Made by a program: the position numbers and the translations under genes. From Deltaproteobacteria bacterium (GTDB taxonomy: Bacteria; Desulfobacterota; WTBG01; CAIYCZ01; CAIRTM01): 39,555 nt of DNA. The stretch spans positions 1 through 39,555 of the forward strand of contig JAFGCP010000309.1 of assembly GCA_016932595.1 (NCBI GenBank), given 5' to 3'. The notes beneath the pieces are model-generated. The model was not told the DNA's origin and did no database searches. It saw only the letters and a list, made by a program, of their open reading frames with translations. Of this stretch, positions 10,707 to 36,635 are shown one piece after another (the first letter of the stretch is position 1; each line of letters starts with the position of its first letter).

Positions 10707-10979
10707 AAATACACTCCTTGCAGGTTACGTGTTGAGCCGGTTAAGCTACTGCGCGTTAGCGCATCTGTCGCTTTGATAATTTCTCCCCGAGCCGTAGAGT
10801 TTTTGGGGATGATGTTATCTTTGATAATTAAAGAAGTGATAATTAGTTCATTTTTTTCTTTTTGTCAAGCAATTAATTTTACGCTTTTAGCTCAAACCTT
10901 TACAAGGCCTTCTTTTTTTAATTCAATCTTGCACGGCGCACAGCGGTTGTGCTAGTAGTATGTCTGATCATGATTGATA

Positions 10980-11000
10980 CCCCCTGCAGGCTGCAGGGGG
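10980..11000. promoter_or_regulatory. 21-bp perfect palindrome upstream of the sigma54-dependent response regulator
   Basis: CCCCCTGCAG G CTGCAGGGGG, ending 26 bp before the ATG at 11027. Confidence 0.5.
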
Positions 11001-11026
11001 CAACTCAGTGCCGCTCGCCTAAGATT

Positions 11027-12379
11027 ATGAAAAAGCAGCATATTTTATTGATTGATGATGATGAGTCGACGCTCAGCATGCTGTCGAAATTTTTTCTCAG
11101 GCAGAGTGCGTTTGTCCTGGAAGAAAGCGATGGCACGCACGCGCTGCAGATATTGCAGGAGGATGTTTTCGATGTTGTGATAACCGACCTTATGCTTGGT
11201 TCTGTAACCGGCATCGATATACTGAAAAAAGTCAAAGAAGTGGCTCCTCATACCGAGGTGATTATAATAACCGGCAACAGTTCGGTTGACTCTGCGGTGC
11301 AGGCAATGAAGCAGGGGGCCTTTGATTATATCACGAAGCCTATAGACCTGACTGAGCTCAATCTTGTGGTGCAGAAGGCCTATGAGCGGCAGCGCCTTGT
11401 CGCCGAAGTCAAGAATTTGAGAAGCCAGGTTAATGACCTGTTCAAATTCGACAATATTGTTGCAACAAGTCCGGCAATGCAGAAACTTCTCGCTATGGTA
11501 AGGCGCGTGGCCAGGTCCACCTCAACGGTGCTCATTGAGGGCGAAAGCGGCACCGGCAAAGAGGTTATCGCACATGCCATTTACAATTACAGCCTTCGAA
11601 GCGACGGCCCGTTTGTGGCAATCAATTGCGGGGCACTGCCTGAAACCCTGCTTGAAAGCGAGCTTTTCGGCTATGTCAAGGGAGCATTCACCGGCGCCAA
11701 TCTCACGAAAAAAGGTCTTTTCGAAGAGGCCCATGGAGGCACCATATTTCTAGATGAAATCGGGGAAACCAGCCCGGCTTTTCAGGTGAAGCTGCTGCGT
11801 GTTCTTCAGGAAAATGAAATTCGGCGCGTCGGGGATACCAAGGATATCGTCATCGACGTCCGCGTGCTTGCTTCAAGCAATGTGCCGATCAAGCAGCTGG
11901 TGGACGAGGGGCGCTTCCGTCAGGACCTGTATTTCAGGCTCAATGTGATTCCTCTGTATATTCCGCCTATCGCGGAGCGCCGTGAGGATATTCTGCCGCT
12001 TGCCCTTTTTTTTGTAGAGCGATACTGCAAGCGGACAAACAGGAGCTTAATCGGGCTGTCCAGAGACGCGATGCACAAGCTTGAGTTGTACGACTGGCCC
12101 GGCAATGTGCGGGAGCTTGAAAATACTATCGAGCGGGCCATGATTCTTGCGGAGACGGATGAGGTCACAGCCGATGATATATTGCTTGAAAACTATAATG
12201 GCAAAAAAGCGCAGTCGTATAATTTCTCGCACATGACTCTGCGTGACCTTGAGCGCCGCCATATAGAGGAAATGCTTATTCACTGCGGATGGAATCAGCG
12301 CGAGGCTGCCAAAAGGCTCAGCATCGGCTATAATACGCTCTGGCGTAAAATTAAAGAGTATGGCCTTGAACGCGCATAA
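11027..12379 (+). CDS. Sigma54-dependent response regulator (NtrC/AtoC family: receiver, AAA+, Fis HTH)
   Basis: [29 protein letters not shown] Walker [25 protein letters not shown] Walker [29 protein letters not shown]; the track start 10949 is upstream of the receiver. Confidence 0.95.
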
Positions 12380-25953: not shown

Positions 25954-26264
25954 GATAGTCTCCCTGTGTGCTTATGGCTACTGCTTTTGATTAATGTGTT
26001 TTGTACTGCTACTGGTTGAACTGTATGGACTTCCTCGAAGTTCAAGTATATAAAAAAACATAATTCAACTGCATTGTCAAGGTTATTCATATCATTTTAT
26101 ACTGCAGCAGGCGCTAAAAATTCTCATGGAACATGTTGTTTTGCCGGCAGCCCCCCCTAAATGCTGTTTGCCGCAGCCGGGATGCCTGTATTTTAAGATA
26201 TGCAACTCAAAGCCAATATGTGGTATGTTTAAACACATACAGCACTCTCAAGGATAGAGCTACC

Positions 26265-28556
26265 ATGGCTAGAGAAGATGACAGGCTCCAGCGCCAGATG
26301 CGTGAGGAGCAGAAGCGGCGCAAGCGGGAACAGAGTATTATTTTCATTGCCATACCGCTTGTCATTGCCCTTACGTCGCTGTTGATGTATGTGACCGGTC
26401 GCAGCGGCGAGGCTCTTCTGCCGCAGAATATTCTTGTATTCAGCCTCATCAATCTGAATGCTATTTTGCTGCTGCTGCTGCTTTTTCTTGTCGTGCGCAA
26501 TGTTGTGAAACTTTTTTTCGAGCGCAGAAGGGGCATTTTGGGGTCGAAGCTGCGCACAAAGCTGGTCATAGCTTTTGTGGGCCTGTCACTGGTGCCGACC
26601 ATGCTTCTTTTCTGGGTGTCCATCAGTTTCATAACCAATACGATTGAAAACTGGTTCAGCTTTAAAGTTGAGAATTCTCTGGAAGAGTCCCTCACGGTCG
26701 TTGATGCCTATTACCGGAACTCGTCCTCAAAAGCGCTTCACTACGCCCACCAGATTGCAGGAAGCATCGCAGCAAAAAAAATGCTCGGCGAGCGCGCCTC
26801 GGAGCCCTTATGGACTCTGGTTGCTGAAAAACAGTCCGAGTACGACCTTGGCGTGGTCGAGATATTTTCAGCCAGCGGAGCGCAGCTGGTCAAGGTTGCC
26901 CGTGCCGATGTGCCCGAAAAGGATTTTATAGGATCAGATGCGGCGCTTGTGCAGCTGGCTCTTGAAGGCAAGGAGGTTACCCGCATTCAGCCGGTTAACG
27001 ACGGAGATATCGTTCGGGGCGTTGTCCCGGTGCGGACTGCTGGCGGCAGGCAGGAAATAATCGGCGCCGTTATTGTAAATTTTTATAATCCCAAGAGCCT
27101 TGTCATCAAAATGGACGGGATCAACCGGGCGTATCAGGAATATAAACAGCTTAAAATATCCAAGGGACCCATCAAGGGAATTTATATTATTCTGCTGTCT
27201 GCAGTGACGCTGCTGATTATTTTTTCTGCTACGTGGTTCGGATTTCACCTTTCAAAGGTTATATCCGTTCCCATCAGTTCACTCGCGACTGCGACGCAGC
27301 AGATAGCTCAGGGGAATCTGGATGTTGTGATAGAGCCGTCGTCAGACGACGAAATCGGCAGCCTGATACAGTCGTTCAATAAAATGACCCATGACCTGAA
27401 AGCCAGCACGCAGCAGGTTGAATCAACAACCGGCAACCTGCGGGAAACCATTCGCGAGCTTGAGCACCGGCGGCTGTATATGGAGGTTTTGCTTGATAAT
27501 GTCGCCTCGGTCGTTGTTTCTACCGATCAGGACGGCGTCATAACGGCATTTAATAATTCAGCGGAGCGCATGTTCGCTACCACCTTTGCGCAGGCCGTCA
27601 ACCGCCCGTACGGTGAAGTGTTTGCCCATGAAGAGCTTGCGCCGCTGCGGGATTTTATAAGCGAGGTTCTTTCCTGCCGGCTTCGATCCGTCGAGCAGCA
27701 GATAGCCCTGTCGCTTGCCGACAGGATGGTGTTTTTGTACGTGCGCTCCAATATGTTTTTTGACGCCGACGGCACAAGCATGGGGCTTGTTCTGGTTGCC
27801 GAAGACCTCACCCAGCTGCAGCAGGCGCAGCGGGCATTTGCCTGGAAGGAAGTCGCTCGCAGGATCGCCCATGAGGTGAAGAACCCGCTGACGCCGATCA
27901 AGCTTTCAGCGCAGCGTTTGAAGAAGAAGTTTCAGCATCAGATATCCTCTGACGCGGGGGTGTTTGATGAATGCACAACGGTTATCATCAATCAGGTCGA
28001 TGAACTCAAGACCATGGTCAATGAGTTTTCAAGTTTTGCCCGCATGCCGGCAACCAATCCTCTGCCCAATGAGCTCAATGAAGTAGTTGAAGAGACCCTT
28101 GCATTGTACCGTGAAGCGCATAAAACCATTGTGTTCAGCGCCGTGCGAGAACTGGAGGCAATACGGTTTAATTTTGACCGGGACCAGATCAAGCGGGTGC
28201 TTATCAATCTGCTTGACAATGCGCTGCACTCCATGGAAAATGGCGGGACAGTAACGGTCAAGACAGCATATAATCAGGCCCTTGACGTGGTGATTATCGA
28301 GGTTGCGGACACCGGCAGCGGCATCCCGCCTGCGCTTAAAACCAAAATTTTTGATCCTTATTTTTCAACAAAAAAGGCCGGCACCGGCCTTGGCCTGGCG
28401 ATCGTCAATACGATAGTGTCAGATCACAATGGATTTATTCGCGTGCGCGACAATCATCCCAACGGCGCCTGCTTCATTATTCAGCTGCCGGTGTCACCGG
28501 TTATAAGTTTCAGAAGGGAAACATATAATGAAAAATTTAACAATACTGCTGGTTGA
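26265..28556 (+). CDS. NtrY-like membrane histidine kinase (TM, HAMP, PAS, HisKA, HATPase)
   Basis: MAREDDRLQRQMREEQ; TM segments; HAMP KVISVPISSLATATQQIAQGNLDVVIE; AWKEVARRIAHEVKNPLTPIKLSAQRL; NLLDNALHSM; GTGLGLAIVNTIVSDHNG. Confidence 0.94.
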   Translation: MAREDDRLQRQMREEQKRRKREQSIIFIAIPLVIALTSLLMYVTGRSGEALLPQNILVFSLINLNAILLLLLLFLVVRNVVKLFFERRRGILGSKLRTKLVIAFVGLSLVPTMLLFWVSISFITNTIENWFSFKVENSLEESLTVVDAYYRNSSSKALHYAHQIAGSIAAKKMLGERASEPLWTLVAEKQSEYDLGVVEIFSASGAQLVKVARADVPEKDFIGSDAALVQLALEGKEVTRIQPVNDGDIVRGVVPVRTAGGRQEIIGAVIVNFYNPKSLVIKMDGINRAYQEYKQLKISKGPIKGIYIILLSAVTLLIIFSATWFGFHLSKVISVPISSLATATQQIAQGNLDVVIEPSSDDEIGSLIQSFNKMTHDLKASTQQVESTTGNLRETIRELEHRRLYMEVLLDNVASVVVSTDQDGVITAFNNSAERMFATTFAQAVNRPYGEVFAHEELAPLRDFISEVLSCRLRSVEQQIALSLADRMVFLYVRSNMFFDADGTSMGLVLVAEDLTQLQQAQRAFAWKEVARRIAHEVKNPLTPIKLSAQRLKKKFQHQISSDAGVFDECTTVIINQVDELKTMVNEFSSFARMPATNPLPNELNEVVEETLALYREAHKTIVFSAVRELEAIRFNFDRDQIKRVLINLLDNALHSMENGGTVTVKTAYNQALDVVIIEVADTGSGIPPALKTKIFDPYFSTKKAGTGLGLAIVNTIVSDHNGFIRVRDNHPNGACFIIQLPVSPVISFRRETYNEKFNNTAG

Positions 28557-30690
28557 CGATGAACCTTCCATTGTGAATTCGCTTCGCGGCAGTCTTGAGG
28601 ACGAAGGGCATATACTGCTTACGGCTTCTGACGGCACCCGAGCCCTCGAGATCGTGCAATCTCATCCCGTGGACATTATTTTTCTCGATATCTGGCTTCC
28701 CGGGATGGACGGCATTCAAACCCTCAAAGCTGTCAGGGATTTTGACAGTGCTATAGAAGTTGTTATGATGACCGGTCACGGCACGGTGAACACGGCGGTT
28801 CAGGCCGTCAAGCACGGCGCCTTCGATTTTCTTGAAAAACCTTTTTCGTTTGATGCTGTTGTCGATGTAATAAGAAAAATAAAAGAAAAGCAGCAGGTGT
28901 CCGGTAAAGGCTCAGCAGGATCGAAAGCAGCGGACAGCAGCGGAGAACTGCCTGATTTGTCCGGAGAGAGCGATGCCATTTTAAGGGTTATGGACCAGAT
29001 CAAAAGCGCTGCATCCGGCACAGGGCATATTCTGCTTTTGGGAGAGATCGGGACGGGTAAGGAGCATGCGGCCCAGCTGATCCACAGCGGAGCGGGATTT
29101 AAGAAAAAAACCTTTACGAAGATCAACTGCGCTTTTTTGACGCCTGCTGAGCTCGAGGCAAAACTGTTCGGCGAAAACCAGCCCGGCAGGCAGGGCCTGC
29201 TGACCGGAGGGCTTTCAGGTGTGCTTTTCCTGCAGGCGCTTGATACTGCCCCGCCCGACATGCACAAGCGGCTTGCCGACCAGCTCGGCCAGCTGCTGCA
29301 GACGGGAGAAGGCGGGCTGCGTGTCGTCGCAGCGACGATTAAAACAGCGCCTTACGGAGTTTTGAAAAAGGCCCTTGCCGAGAGCTTTCAGCATACGATA
29401 CTGCTGCCGCCCCTGCGCGAGCGCCGCAGCGATATACCCGTTATGCTCAATTCATTTCTCGCCCGGTTTTGCAGGGAATATGGCTGCAGGGAAAAGCACT
29501 TTGCTGACGAGGCTCTTGAACTTCTGGTAAACTATGATTGGCCGGGCAATGTTAAGGAACTGAAGAACCTCACTGAAAAAATGATTGTTTCGGTGCCGAC
29601 AATAACCATTTCAGCCCAGGATTTGCCCTCGACGATACGCGAAGAGGCCCATCCTGTCTTCTCCCGCTCCTATGAGCACTTCTCAAGCATGGCAGAGGCG
29701 GAAGTTGCCTGGCGCAAAAATTATCTGCTGCATCATTTGCGCAAAAACGATCGCAATCTGTCAAGGACAGCTGCCGCAATACATATCAGGGAGAAGGAGC
29801 TGAAAAAATTAATCAAAGAATACGGCATTGCTTTTGCGAAAGAAAATCCGTCAGGTAAACGCTTTCAGAGAACGCTCAAACGGGCCATGGTGGTGAGCGG
29901 GCAGGGGCTGCATTCGGGAGACAAAACAGGGCTTATTTTAACGCCGCTGCCTCCCGGCAGCGGCATAGTATTCGGCAATATTTCAAGCGAAGATACGATT
30001 CCGGCATCCATTGAGTATGTGGTGTCGACCGACTATTCAACGTGTCTGCAGAATACCAACTCAACAGCCCGCACGATAGAGCATTGCCTCGCAACGCTGC
30101 ATTCCTATCGCATCACAAATCTTATGATCAAGATCAATAATGAAGTGCCCATCATGGACGGTTCTGCCGTTGATTTTTGTAAGATGATTGAGGATGCGGG
30201 TATTGAAGAGCAGGATGCTCCTGCCGATGACATCGTCCTTACCGAAAAATTTGTTATCGGTGACGTCGATGGCTCTAAAAAATACATGATAGTCGAGCCG
30301 GCGGAGCGATTTTCAATTCATTATATGCTGCAGTACCCAAAACCGGTCGGCCGGCAGGAATACACCTTTATCATGAACGACGAGGAATCCTTTAAGAAGG
30401 AGATTGCTCCGGCGCGCACATTCGGCTTTTTACGCGATATTGAGGCGCTTCAGGAGCGGGGGTTGGCAAGCGGCGGCAAGCTCAATAATTTTATTCTTAT
30501 CGACAATGAGAAGATTGTGAACACCGAGCTCCGGTTTCCCGATGAATTTGTGCGGCATAAAATTCTAGACATGATAGGAGACTTTTATTTGCTGGGCCGC
30601 CCCATCCGCGCACGGATAACTGCAAATATGACAGGGCATACCGACAATACAACGATGGTTCGTATGATTCGAGACCGCATGCATCTCTGA
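28528..30690 (+). CDS. Fusion protein: NtrX-like response regulator (receiver, degenerate sigma54 AAA+, Fis HTH) joined to LpxC UDP-3-O-acyl-N-acetylglucosamine deacetylase
   Basis: Receiver LLVDDEP...FLDIWLPGMDG(D54)...TGHG...EKPF; GEIGTGKE (172-179); HTH NLSRTAAAIHIREKELKKLIKEYGI; LpxC from ~residue 445: RTLKRAMVVSGQGLHSG...RTIEHCLA...VPIMDGSAVDF...ARTFGFLRDIEALQERGLASGG...LRFPDEFVRHKILDMIGDFYLLG...TGHTDN. Confidence 0.95.
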   Translation: MKNLTILLVDDEPSIVNSLRGSLEDEGHILLTASDGTRALEIVQSHPVDIIFLDIWLPGMDGIQTLKAVRDFDSAIEVVMMTGHGTVNTAVQAVKHGAFDFLEKPFSFDAVVDVIRKIKEKQQVSGKGSAGSKAADSSGELPDLSGESDAILRVMDQIKSAASGTGHILLLGEIGTGKEHAAQLIHSGAGFKKKTFTKINCAFLTPAELEAKLFGENQPGRQGLLTGGLSGVLFLQALDTAPPDMHKRLADQLGQLLQTGEGGLRVVAATIKTAPYGVLKKALAESFQHTILLPPLRERRSDIPVMLNSFLARFCREYGCREKHFADEALELLVNYDWPGNVKELKNLTEKMIVSVPTITISAQDLPSTIREEAHPVFSRSYEHFSSMAEAEVAWRKNYLLHHLRKNDRNLSRTAAAIHIREKELKKLIKEYGIAFAKENPSGKRFQRTLKRAMVVSGQGLHSGDKTGLILTPLPPGSGIVFGNISSEDTIPASIEYVVSTDYSTCLQNTNSTARTIEHCLATLHSYRITNLMIKINNEVPIMDGSAVDFCKMIEDAGIEEQDAPADDIVLTEKFVIGDVDGSKKYMIVEPAERFSIHYMLQYPKPVGRQEYTFIMNDEESFKKEIAPARTFGFLRDIEALQERGLASGGKLNNFILIDNEKIVNTELRFPDEFVRHKILDMIGDFYLLGRPIRARITANMTGHTDNTTMVRMIRDRMHL

Positions 30691-30773: not shown

Positions 30774-31463
30774 ATGAGCAATTCCCTGAATGTTGAGAAG
30801 AGCAGCGCAGCGGGTCCGGGTTCTTCTTCACGCCGCGAGCCTGACCAGATGGGCGCCGGCCGTACCCGCCTCTACCTTGCGCGGCATGGCGAGCTTGTCA
30901 CCTCCCATGAATGGCGGTATGTGGGCCATTTGGATGTAGCGCTCAATGATAAAGGACGGGCGCAGATAGCCCGCCTTGCCCGCAGGCTGAGCATGGAAAA
31001 AATAGATGTACTGCTGTCAAGCGACCTTATGCGCACGGTCGAGTCCGCCTGGATCATCGGCGCAGCCATCGGTCTTGAGCCGGCTGCTGAGCCTGCTTTC
31101 AGGGAGATACATCTTGGCCAGTGGGAGGGCTTGACGCGCGAGGAGATTACGGAGCGTTTTACGCAGGAGTTTGATCTTCGTTCCGCCGATATAGCCGGCT
31201 ACAGGATACAGGGCGGGGAGAGCTTTGCCGACCTGCGCGACCGCGTCATACCGCGGCTGACAGCCTGCCTTGATGAGCACCAGGGCAGGAATGTGCTGCT
31301 GGTGGCCCATGGAGGAGTGAACCGCATTATTCTGTGTCATGCCCTTGGGCTTGATTTAAACATGCTGCCCCGCATCGATCAGGCATATGGCTGCCTGAAT
31401 ATCATAGATTTTTTTGACGGCGTCCCGGTCGTTCACCTGATGAATGAAACGCCGTTTGATTGA
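30774..31463 (+). CDS. Histidine phosphatase (phosphoglycerate mutase-like) family protein
   Basis: TRLYLARHGELVTSHEWRYVGHLDVALNDKGRAQIARLARRL...LLSSDLMRTVESA...FREIHLGQWEGLT...VLLVAHGGVNRIIL. Confidence 0.93.
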   Translation: MSNSLNVEKSSAAGPGSSSRREPDQMGAGRTRLYLARHGELVTSHEWRYVGHLDVALNDKGRAQIARLARRLSMEKIDVLLSSDLMRTVESAWIIGAAIGLEPAAEPAFREIHLGQWEGLTREEITERFTQEFDLRSADIAGYRIQGGESFADLRDRVIPRLTACLDEHQGRNVLLVAHGGVNRIILCHALGLDLNMLPRIDQAYGCLNIIDFFDGVPVVHLMNETPFD

Positions 31464-32358
31464 CTGGCTGCCGCCTGCGTATGCCTTGCCGCGGGGAGCG
31501 GGTTCGGCTGCCCGCGGTTCTGTAGCGGAAGATGCTCGTGGCAGCCTCTTGGGACACTGTATGGAACAGGCCGTTTATATACACTGCAGCGATCAGCTGC
31601 GCTACCTGAGTGATGATTTTACGCGGCTGTATTTCGGAGCGGAATTTTGTGAGCGCCTGATACCGCCGCGGCTTGAGCTTCAAACGGCGCTGCGCAGCGC
31701 CCGCGAAAGATCACTCGGCTTTACCTTTATGACCCCGTTTGTGACAAACCGGGGACTTGAGCAGCTCGAAGAGCTGCTGGCCGTGCTTGAGCAGAGCCTG
31801 CCTGATGCTGAAGTTGTTGTGAATGACTGGGGGGTGCTTCAGCTGCTGCGCAGCGAGCATCCCCGGCTCAGGCCCGTGCTCGGTCGGCTGCTCAACAAGA
31901 GCAAGCGCGGTCCGCGCCTTATGAATATTTTCGAGCAGCTTCCCGCCGAAACAAAGAGCTACTTTCAGGGCTCCAACCTTGACGTGCCGGCAGCCGTCCG
32001 CTTTCTGGCGCAGCAGGGCATCAGCCGCGTGGAGTTTGACAATCTTCTGCAGGGCCTGAACCTTGAGGGCACGGATGCAGGCCTTCACAAGTCGCTCTAT
32101 GTACCGTTTGCTTTTATTTCCGCAACCCGCTTCTGCCTGAGCGCCAACTGCGATGATCCGGTAAAGATGGGCTCAATCGGCATTTTTCCCTGCGGCAGAG
32201 AATGCCTGAAGTACAGCTTCAACCTGTATAATCCGGTCATGACCCTGCCGCTTATACGGCGCGGCAATGCTGTTTTTTTTATACATGAAACCATACCCGA
32301 TGCTGTTACCAGGCATCAGGTCGACCGGATTGTCGTGCAGCCGGAGCTGCCGGTCTGA
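31444..32358 (+). CDS. Peptidase U32-related/UbiV-like protein, putative Fe-S
   Basis: VVNDWGVLQLLRS; RFCLSANC...FPCGREC four-Cys pattern reminiscent of UbiV; adjacent to a U32 protein. Confidence 0.6.
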   Translation: MKRRLIDWLPPAYALPRGAGSAARGSVAEDARGSLLGHCMEQAVYIHCSDQLRYLSDDFTRLYFGAEFCERLIPPRLELQTALRSARERSLGFTFMTPFVTNRGLEQLEELLAVLEQSLPDAEVVVNDWGVLQLLRSEHPRLRPVLGRLLNKSKRGPRLMNIFEQLPAETKSYFQGSNLDVPAAVRFLAQQGISRVEFDNLLQGLNLEGTDAGLHKSLYVPFAFISATRFCLSANCDDPVKMGSIGIFPCGRECLKYSFNLYNPVMTLPLIRRGNAVFFIHETIPDAVTRHQVDRIVVQPELPV

Positions 32359-35570: not shown

Positions 35571-36635
35571 ATGGGAAGAACGGTTGTTTTGAAGGACACA
35601 TGCTTTCTGGGCCATGTAACCCAGCATGGCCATCCGGAAAGTCCCGAGCGTCTGGAGGCAATTTATGCCATGCTTCAGAATGCTGATATGGCAGGATGTG
35701 TCGAAGAGATTTCCCCGCGCCGGGCGGCAAAAGCCGAGATTGCTCTGAATCACTCACCGGCCTATATTGATCGTATTGCCGCCACGGCAGGCAGGCCTCC
35801 CCTGAGCCTTGATCCCGATACCGGCACGTCTGAAGGTTCCTGGAATGCAGCTGCACATGCTGTGGGCGCGGTGCTGGACGGTATAGACAGGATACTTTCA
35901 GGGGCGGCTGATAATGCTTTTGCCCTGGTTCGGCCTCCGGGGCATCATGCCGAATACAGCCAAGCAATGGGCTTTTGCCTGTTTAATAATATAGCTATCG
36001 GTGCCCGCTATTTGCTTGAGAAGCACAACATGCAGCGGGTTCTGATTTTTGACTGGGATATTCATCACGGCAATGGAACGCAGCACTCTTTTTATGCCAA
36101 CCCTCAGGTACTGTATGTGTCAACTCACCAGTATCCCTACTATCCGGGAACGGGTGCTTTTGAAGAGACGGGGGACAATGCGGGCAGGGGGTTTACCGTC
36201 AATGTTCCTCTGTCGGGGGGGCAGGGCGACAGTGATTATGCCTGCATTTTACGTGAGATACTTGTGCCCCTTGCCCTTGAATACCAGCCCGAATTCGTGC
36301 TGGTGTCGGCAGGTTTCGACATTTACCAGCATGACCCGCTCGGCACTATGGAGGTAACCCCGCAGGGTTTTTATGCCATGACAGACATTATCAGAGAACT
36401 GGCCGATACGGTCTGCGGCGGCAGGCTGCTGCTTGTTCTTGAGGGCGGCTATCATGTGCTGGGCATAGCAGAAGCAGTGAAGCAGACCCTGCGTGCATTG
36501 AGCAGCACCTGCGGTTCACCGGTCAAAAAACCTGTCTGTTCGGGGGAGGATGCCCGGATTCTGCCTGCAACCCGTGCGAGCATGGATAAAGTAAAAAAAC
36601 TGCATTCGGCTGCCTGGAAGGTTTTTCGTCAGTGA
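35571..36635 (+). CDS. Histone deacetylase superfamily (AcuC/acetylpolyamine amidohydrolase-like) protein
   Basis: HPESPERLEAIYAML...VRPPGHHAEYSQAMGFCLFNNIAIGARYL...VLIFDWDIHHGNGTQHSFY...VLVSAGFDIYQHDPLG...LVLEGGYH. Confidence 0.95.
   Translation: MGRTVVLKDTCFLGHVTQHGHPESPERLEAIYAMLQNADMAGCVEEISPRRAAKAEIALNHSPAYIDRIAATAGRPPLSLDPDTGTSEGSWNAAAHAVGAVLDGIDRILSGAADNAFALVRPPGHHAEYSQAMGFCLFNNIAIGARYLLEKHNMQRVLIFDWDIHHGNGTQHSFYANPQVLYVSTHQYPYYPGTGAFEETGDNAGRGFTVNVPLSGGQGDSDYACILREILVPLALEYQPEFVLVSAGFDIYQHDPLGTMEVTPQGFYAMTDIIRELADTVCGGRLLLVLEGGYHVLGIAEAVKQTLRALSSTCGSPVKKPVCSGEDARILPATRASMDKVKKLHSAAWKVFRQ

Follow-up and report, generated by a model that had tools for sequence, protein, structure and literature searches.

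The stretch of DNA analysed here, referred to as the window, comprises 39,555 nucleotides of contig JAFGCP010000309.1 from a Deltaproteobacteria bacterium (assembly GCA_016932595.1). It contains a gene in which a response regulator receiver of the NtrX type is joined to LpxC, the UDP-3-O-acyl-GlcNAc deacetylase of the committed step in lipid A synthesis, in one frame of 720 amino acids (aa) that starts with ATG and is free of stop codons, as a first interpretation made without database searches (the sequence-only reading) had described. The gene for an NtrY-type kinase lies directly upstream and overlaps the fusion gene by 29 bases (Table 1). The domain search proposed in that reading was carried out, and Pfam matched Response_reg, Sigma54_activat (weakly, residues 145-253, E 3e-15), AAA_lid_14 (residues 297-375) and LpxC. 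The AAA+-like region claimed earlier is therefore present, but it is degenerate, the GAFTGA loop and Walker B being gone. The Fis-type helix-turn-helix (HTH) survives as a remnant: HTH_8 found no Pfam match in the 720-aa protein, and an HTH-like stretch was visible by alignment to NtrX. The LpxC module is complete but starts at about residue 447 rather than 445. No usable internal start with a ribosome site was found near the junction when the fusion gene was scanned for start codons, in agreement with the reported absence of an ATG before the LpxC domain. The only start-like codons there were a TTG at residue 404 and ATG/GTG/GTG at residues 454-456, the latter lying in the first strand of LpxC and lacking a Shine-Dalgarno sequence.

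Table 1. Features of the fusion gene and its upstream neighbor (positions in the window)
Feature	Positions	Strand	Basis or remarks
Receiver - degenerate AAA+ - HTH remnant - LpxC fusion gene	28528..30690	+	720 aa, ATG start, stop-free frame
NtrX-type receiver, residues 6-115	28543..28872	+	Pfam Response_reg E 2e-30; phospho-acceptor D54 at 28687-28689
Degenerate sigma54-activator AAA+ region, residues 145-375	28960..29652	+	Walker A present, no GAFTGA loop, QA in place of Walker B DE
Fis-type HTH remnant, about residues 390-436	29695..29835	+	Alignment with HTH of unfused NtrX
Flexible linker, residues 437-446	29836..29865	+	Predicted local distance difference test (pLDDT) <50 at 437-442; start-codon scan
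LpxC catalytic domain, residues 447-714	29866..30669	+	Pfam E 4e-84; TIGR00325 above cut-off; Foldseek to 1p42
NtrY-type membrane histidine kinase, likely cognate kinase	26133..28556	+	Pfam NtrY_N, HAMP, PAS, HisKA, HATPase_c; only NtrY_N match in genome

The same in-frame junction was present in the independent assemblies G001-G010, G012, G017 and G019, among which only G007 had a stop, located in the receiver. The same fusion, with 46-84% identity, was carried by all ten genomes sampled within the window's genus, family and order and by several from other classes. A scan of 84,980 species genomes was made with 22 fused LpxC domains as queries and the best 80 loci were returned; 78 of these were receiver-LpxC fusions. 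Altogether, the search for the same architecture elsewhere gave 116 distinct fusions in Desulfobacterota, Nitrospinota, Nitrospirota, Acidobacteriota, Binatota and SAR324/Lambdaproteobacteria (phyla taken from record titles). With the in-frame junction repeated in dozens of other genomes, an assembly artefact was ruled out, and the receiver-LpxC fusion is confirmed as real.

Whole genomes were surveyed with profile PF03331. Of 158 genomes drawn evenly from the window's phylum, 146 had LpxC, and in 36 of these it lay in a frame of at least 410 aa; all 22 of these long frames that were fetched were receiver fusions. In Nitrospinota 53 of 55 LpxC matches lay in whole frames of 460-797 aa and the other two were cut by contig ends; stand-alone LpxC was found in none of the Nitrospinota genomes surveyed. 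The fusion occurred in about ten of 92 Nitrospirota and was rare in the even draw of Acidobacteriota, where it was verified in G170, G204 and G272. Long LpxC frames from the Acidobacteriota G192, G271, G235, G228 and G222 had no N-terminal domain and are probably high-GC open frames. Two kinds of apparently larger fusion were also rejected. Open frames of 934-1354 aa that suggested histidine kinase-receiver-LpxC chains (L052, L053) had NtrY in another, overlapping frame, and the 1093-aa frame of L131 contained only receiver and LpxC according to Pfam.

A second, stand-alone lpxC, for which the sequence-only reading had advised a check, was not found in the window genome (assembly 76% complete), and more complete relatives likewise have only one. 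The fusion was the sole LpxC in 16 of the 20 carrier genomes checked. LpxA was present in 20 of 22 genomes tested, from which it follows that the carriers make lipid A. Since the fusion is the sole LpxC in most carriers checked and the only kind in Nitrospinota, it must be the working enzyme, and fused LpxC is predicted to be the deacetylase of these cells. Both a stand-alone LpxC and a fusion were seen in G062, G170, G179, G183 and G189, of which G183 and G189 also keep NtrX; such genomes may represent intermediate or recipient states.

The LpxC domain has the fold and the catalytic residues of the enzyme. The window protein scored 265.6 bits with TIGR00325 (lpxC; cut-off 187), LpxC was the best solved relative over residues 447-714, and the predicted domain superimposed on Aquifex LpxC 1p42 with a template modelling (TM) score, TMt, of 0.93 and a root-mean-square deviation of 1.9. 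The zinc ligands and catalytic residues (E. coli E78, H79, T191, H238, K239, D242, D246 and H265) were invariant in 116 of 116 fusions, with T or S at T191. In the window protein the equivalents E518, H519, H677, D681, D685 and H704 had been numbered correctly in the sequence-only reading. When 181 LpxC domains were placed in a tree, those from fusions formed one clade on a long branch (Shimodaira-Hasegawa-like approximate likelihood ratio test, 100), and its only non-fusion member was a fragment cut by a contig end. About ten residues are specific to this clade. K535 was found in all 116 fused domains, while most stand-alone LpxC have Glu. Residues 467-468, 525, 535, 551, 603-604, 666 and 687 (window positions 29926-30588) were near-fixed in fused and rare in stand-alone LpxC. 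The clade-specific residues, among them T467, G468, H525, K535, C551, P604 and Y687, are candidate contact sites for the receiver.

The receiver of the window protein has the acidic pair D10 and D11, the phospho-acceptor D54, T82 and K104. D10, D11, D54 and K104 were invariant in 103 of 103 fused proteins, T/S82 was kept in 102, and the tryptophan of the DIW motif was invariant in fused receivers. The label NtrX-like given in the sequence-only reading was borne out by several lines of evidence. Brucella NtrX 5m7n was the best solved relative of residues 5-434, and the predicted model also matched NtrX. NtrX was the best NCBIfam regulator model as well, and the overlapping upstream kinase has the NtrY_N domain. 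The score with NF051870 (NtrX), 246.7 bits, is below the 600-bit cut-off, but this cut-off was built on other lineages and is also missed by unfused relatives (451-533 bits). In the receiver tree the fused receivers grouped with NtrX proteins encoded beside NtrY, apart from other NtrC-type regulators (support 95).

In 39 fusion loci the gene immediately upstream, on the same strand, encoded NtrY. Nearly all of the tested genomes in which the fusion lies apart from NtrY still had the kinase. In 12 of 13 of their NtrY regions that were read, no regulator adjoined the kinase. The exception was Desulfopila G183, which has an intact NtrY-NtrX pair and also a stand-alone LpxC. In the fusion-free relatives L057-L059 the gene order was lpxC - ntrY - ntrX, and 22 stand-alone loci had NtrY at most 1.5 kb after lpxC. 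The partners thus probably lay side by side before the fusion. The best match per genome to the NtrX model was 451-533 bits in six fusion-free genomes, and 478 and 492 bits in two that have fused as well as stand-alone LpxC. In contrast, stand-alone NtrX was undetectable in 16 fusion-only genomes, where the model reached 379-431 bits at best, which is the level of paralogues. Stand-alone NtrX thus disappears where LpxC bears the receiver.

The 116 fusions comprise 42 long forms (receiver, AAA+ remnant, with or without HTH, LpxC) and 74 short forms, in which a linker of roughly 28-72 residues connects receiver and LpxC and both AAA+ and HTH are absent. The GAFTGA loop was found in none of 33 long forms compared with nine of nine unfused regulators, and the DE of Walker B in none of the 33 compared with eight of nine. 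Roughly half of the long forms had no HTH. Between the window and a sister genome the ratio of nonsynonymous to synonymous substitution rates (dN/dS) was 0.046 for the receiver, 0.043 for LpxC, 0.140 for AAA+ and 0.088 for the HTH; these values come from one genome pair with dS near saturation in places. The AAA+ value is three times that of the receiver and LpxC domains. At the sequence level, the AAA+/HTH part is shown to be a decaying NtrX relic lacking the motifs for activation of sigma54 promoters. For contrast within the same genome, window positions 10949-12379 (+) encode an NtrC-family regulator that is intact and has both GAFTGA and Walker B.

Neither tree fixes the order in which the architectures arose: short forms are basal among the LpxC domains, the long receivers form a single clade among the receivers, and seven changes are needed. 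In three short fusions (L070, L102, L105) the LpxC stands beside Nitrospinota long forms and the receiver is nearer to an unfused NtrX (L203). A receiver replacement is possible in this group.

The fused enzymes also differ at the C terminus. A median of 16 residues follows the equivalent of E. coli H265 in fused LpxC, compared with a median of 42 in 64 stand-alone LpxC and with 40 in E. coli. The window LpxC has 16, and a tail of the degron type (about 20 or more residues) is absent. In E. coli the C-terminal tail of LpxC carries the FtsH degron (PMC12444477). Many stand-alone LpxC outside Enterobacteria (loci such as L022-L048) end in Ala/Val-rich tails similar to the degron of E. coli, a hint that proteolysis of LpxC by way of its tail may be widespread. 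Clear LapB was found in three of 14 fusion-free genomes and in none of 19 with the fusion. This agrees with lost proteolysis, but LapB was set aside as a marker, the numbers being too few to count. Because fused LpxC lacks the tail which in E. coli holds the degron, a phospho-switch probably replaced proteolytic removal. The earlier suggestion of control in place of the FtsH type thus receives circumstantial support from the loss of the tail.

The arrangement of the domains was examined in predicted structures. The model of the two-domain member L074 reached a predicted TM score (pTM) of 0.86, although its linker was disordered (pLDDT <50), and LpxC alone covers a TM score of only 0.60 of this model. 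Receiver and LpxC therefore have a predicted fixed place relative to each other, and a defined docking of the receiver on LpxC is predicted for L074.

Taken together, these comparisons make it fairly probable that the protein is a response regulator with LpxC as its output, in which NtrX, once a transcription factor, would have become a phospho-switch carried on board by the enzyme, probably replacing a proteolytic brake. NtrY, produced from the overlapping upstream gene, would phosphorylate D54 of the receiver. The receiver would then pack differently on the LpxC of the same chain according to its phosphorylation state and so alter deacetylase activity. The AAA+/HTH part in between would be a relic of NtrX, dropped by most of the clade, and the phospho-switch would probably take over from the removal of LpxC by proteolysis. 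This suggests that in the carriers a sensor kinase acts directly on outer-membrane synthesis, raising or lowering it. The sign of the control, a brake, is a guess based on two points: in E. coli too much LpxC is toxic, and in Alphaproteobacteria lpxC expression is reduced by NtrYX. The sequence-only reading had proposed a phosphorelay tied to LpxC by direct fusion; comparative support came from the single clade, the phospho-site, the kinase linkage, the loss of NtrX and the loss of activator motifs, and the mechanism itself remains a prediction from sequence.

Several observations weigh against this mechanism. More than half of the short forms have no NtrY nearby. The 720-aa model of the window protein had a mean pLDDT of 86 but a pTM of 0.46, so that the domain arrangement is not defined by it, and the receiver-LpxC interface is predicted from the pTM of L074 alone. 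The HTH residues are still somewhat constrained, judging from the single genome pair, and Walker A was kept in 32 of 33 long forms, so that in this lineage the middle part cannot be dismissed as mere debris.

The receiver might also govern the location or assembly of LpxC and not its catalysis, docking on NtrY or phospho-dependent dimerization setting membrane placement or lifetime. NtrY is a membrane kinase encoded next door, receivers of this family commonly work by dimerization, and the short forms consist of receiver and LpxC only. The fixed intramolecular placement predicted for L074 and the location of NtrY elsewhere in many genomes make this explanation unlikely. It is very unlikely that the protein continues to work as a transcription factor of the NtrX type, with an LpxC domain that reports substrate supply to a promoter, as in a trigger enzyme. 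The window protein does retain Walker A, the AAA+ lid and an HTH-like stretch, but the two activator motifs were lost in 33 of 33 long forms, about half of these have no HTH, the 74 short forms have neither region, and selection on AAA+ is relaxed. The disordered and poorly conserved linkers would suit a passive fusion, in which the shared chain serves co-expression only or the domains are parted by internal initiation or cleavage. This is highly improbable in view of the phospho-site retained in all 103 receivers over several phyla, the loss of separate NtrX and the lack of an internal start with a ribosome site. An assembly or frameshift artefact, conceivable for a fragmented metagenome assembly such as that of the window genome, is refuted by the orthologues with the in-frame junction and has a negligible probability, the more so as dN/dS is low on either side of the junction and the domain-free high-GC frames upstream of LpxC in some Acidobacteriota demonstrate that open frames alone yield no receivers.

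Two further genes of the window were noted. A 304-aa open reading frame at positions 31444-32358 (+), between histidine phosphatase-type and peptidase U32-type genes, had no Pfam or NCBIfam match, and a histone deacetylase-family protein (Pfam) is encoded at positions 35571-36635 (+).

Cells cannot do without LpxC, an excess of it is toxic, and it ranks among the foremost antibacterial targets. What is understood of its control is mostly proteolysis in Enterobacteria; how other phyla keep their lipopolysaccharide in balance is largely open, and a receiver built into LpxC makes the question directly testable with one protein and one kinase. Living genomes also appear to show steps by which a transcription factor could become a domain for enzyme control: NtrX still intact next to lpxC, a fusion with a crippled AAA+ region, and receiver-LpxC alone. 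For these phyla, the customary view of NtrYX as a nitrogen or redox system may call for revision.

No published description of LpxC fused to NtrX or to a receiver domain was found in the open-access literature. The fusion shares with LpxC (TIGR00325, PF03331; E. coli b0096, Aquifex 1p42) the fold, the zinc and catalytic residues, the status of sole lpxC of the genome and the QRTLK start, and differs by the N-terminal NtrX-type receiver, the lost C-terminal tail and the clade-specific residues. With NtrX (NF051870; Brucella NtrX 5m7n) it shares the DIW-motif receiver, the AAA+ lid and HTH in the same order and the neighboring NtrY; it differs by the lost GAFTGA and Walker B, a decaying or absent HTH and LpxC as output. 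The known bifunctional LpxC-FabZ protein (PRK13188; NF009667) is also an LpxC fusion, but joins two lipid enzymes and has no signalling domain. The FtsH-LapB-YejM system of E. coli, like the fusion, would set LpxC activity from the envelope side, but it acts through degradation via the C-terminal tail that fused LpxC lacks. Response regulators with enzymatic outputs, such as CheB and the REC-GGDEF, REC-EAL and HD-GYP proteins, have a receiver that controls an enzyme in cis; we know of none with an essential lipid A biosynthetic enzyme as output. A two-component link to this pathway has a precedent at the level of transcription. NtrYX lowers lpxC expression (transcripts) in Rhodobacter and Caulobacter (PMC7240162, PMC12444477), and the sigma54-type regulator DVU2934 of Desulfovibrio has lpxC as its single target (PMC3333781). 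In these systems the same enzyme is under two-component control, but through transcription and by separate proteins, whereas the fusion is one chain. Both halves are already known; what is new is a response regulator that has LpxC in the place of its output domain.

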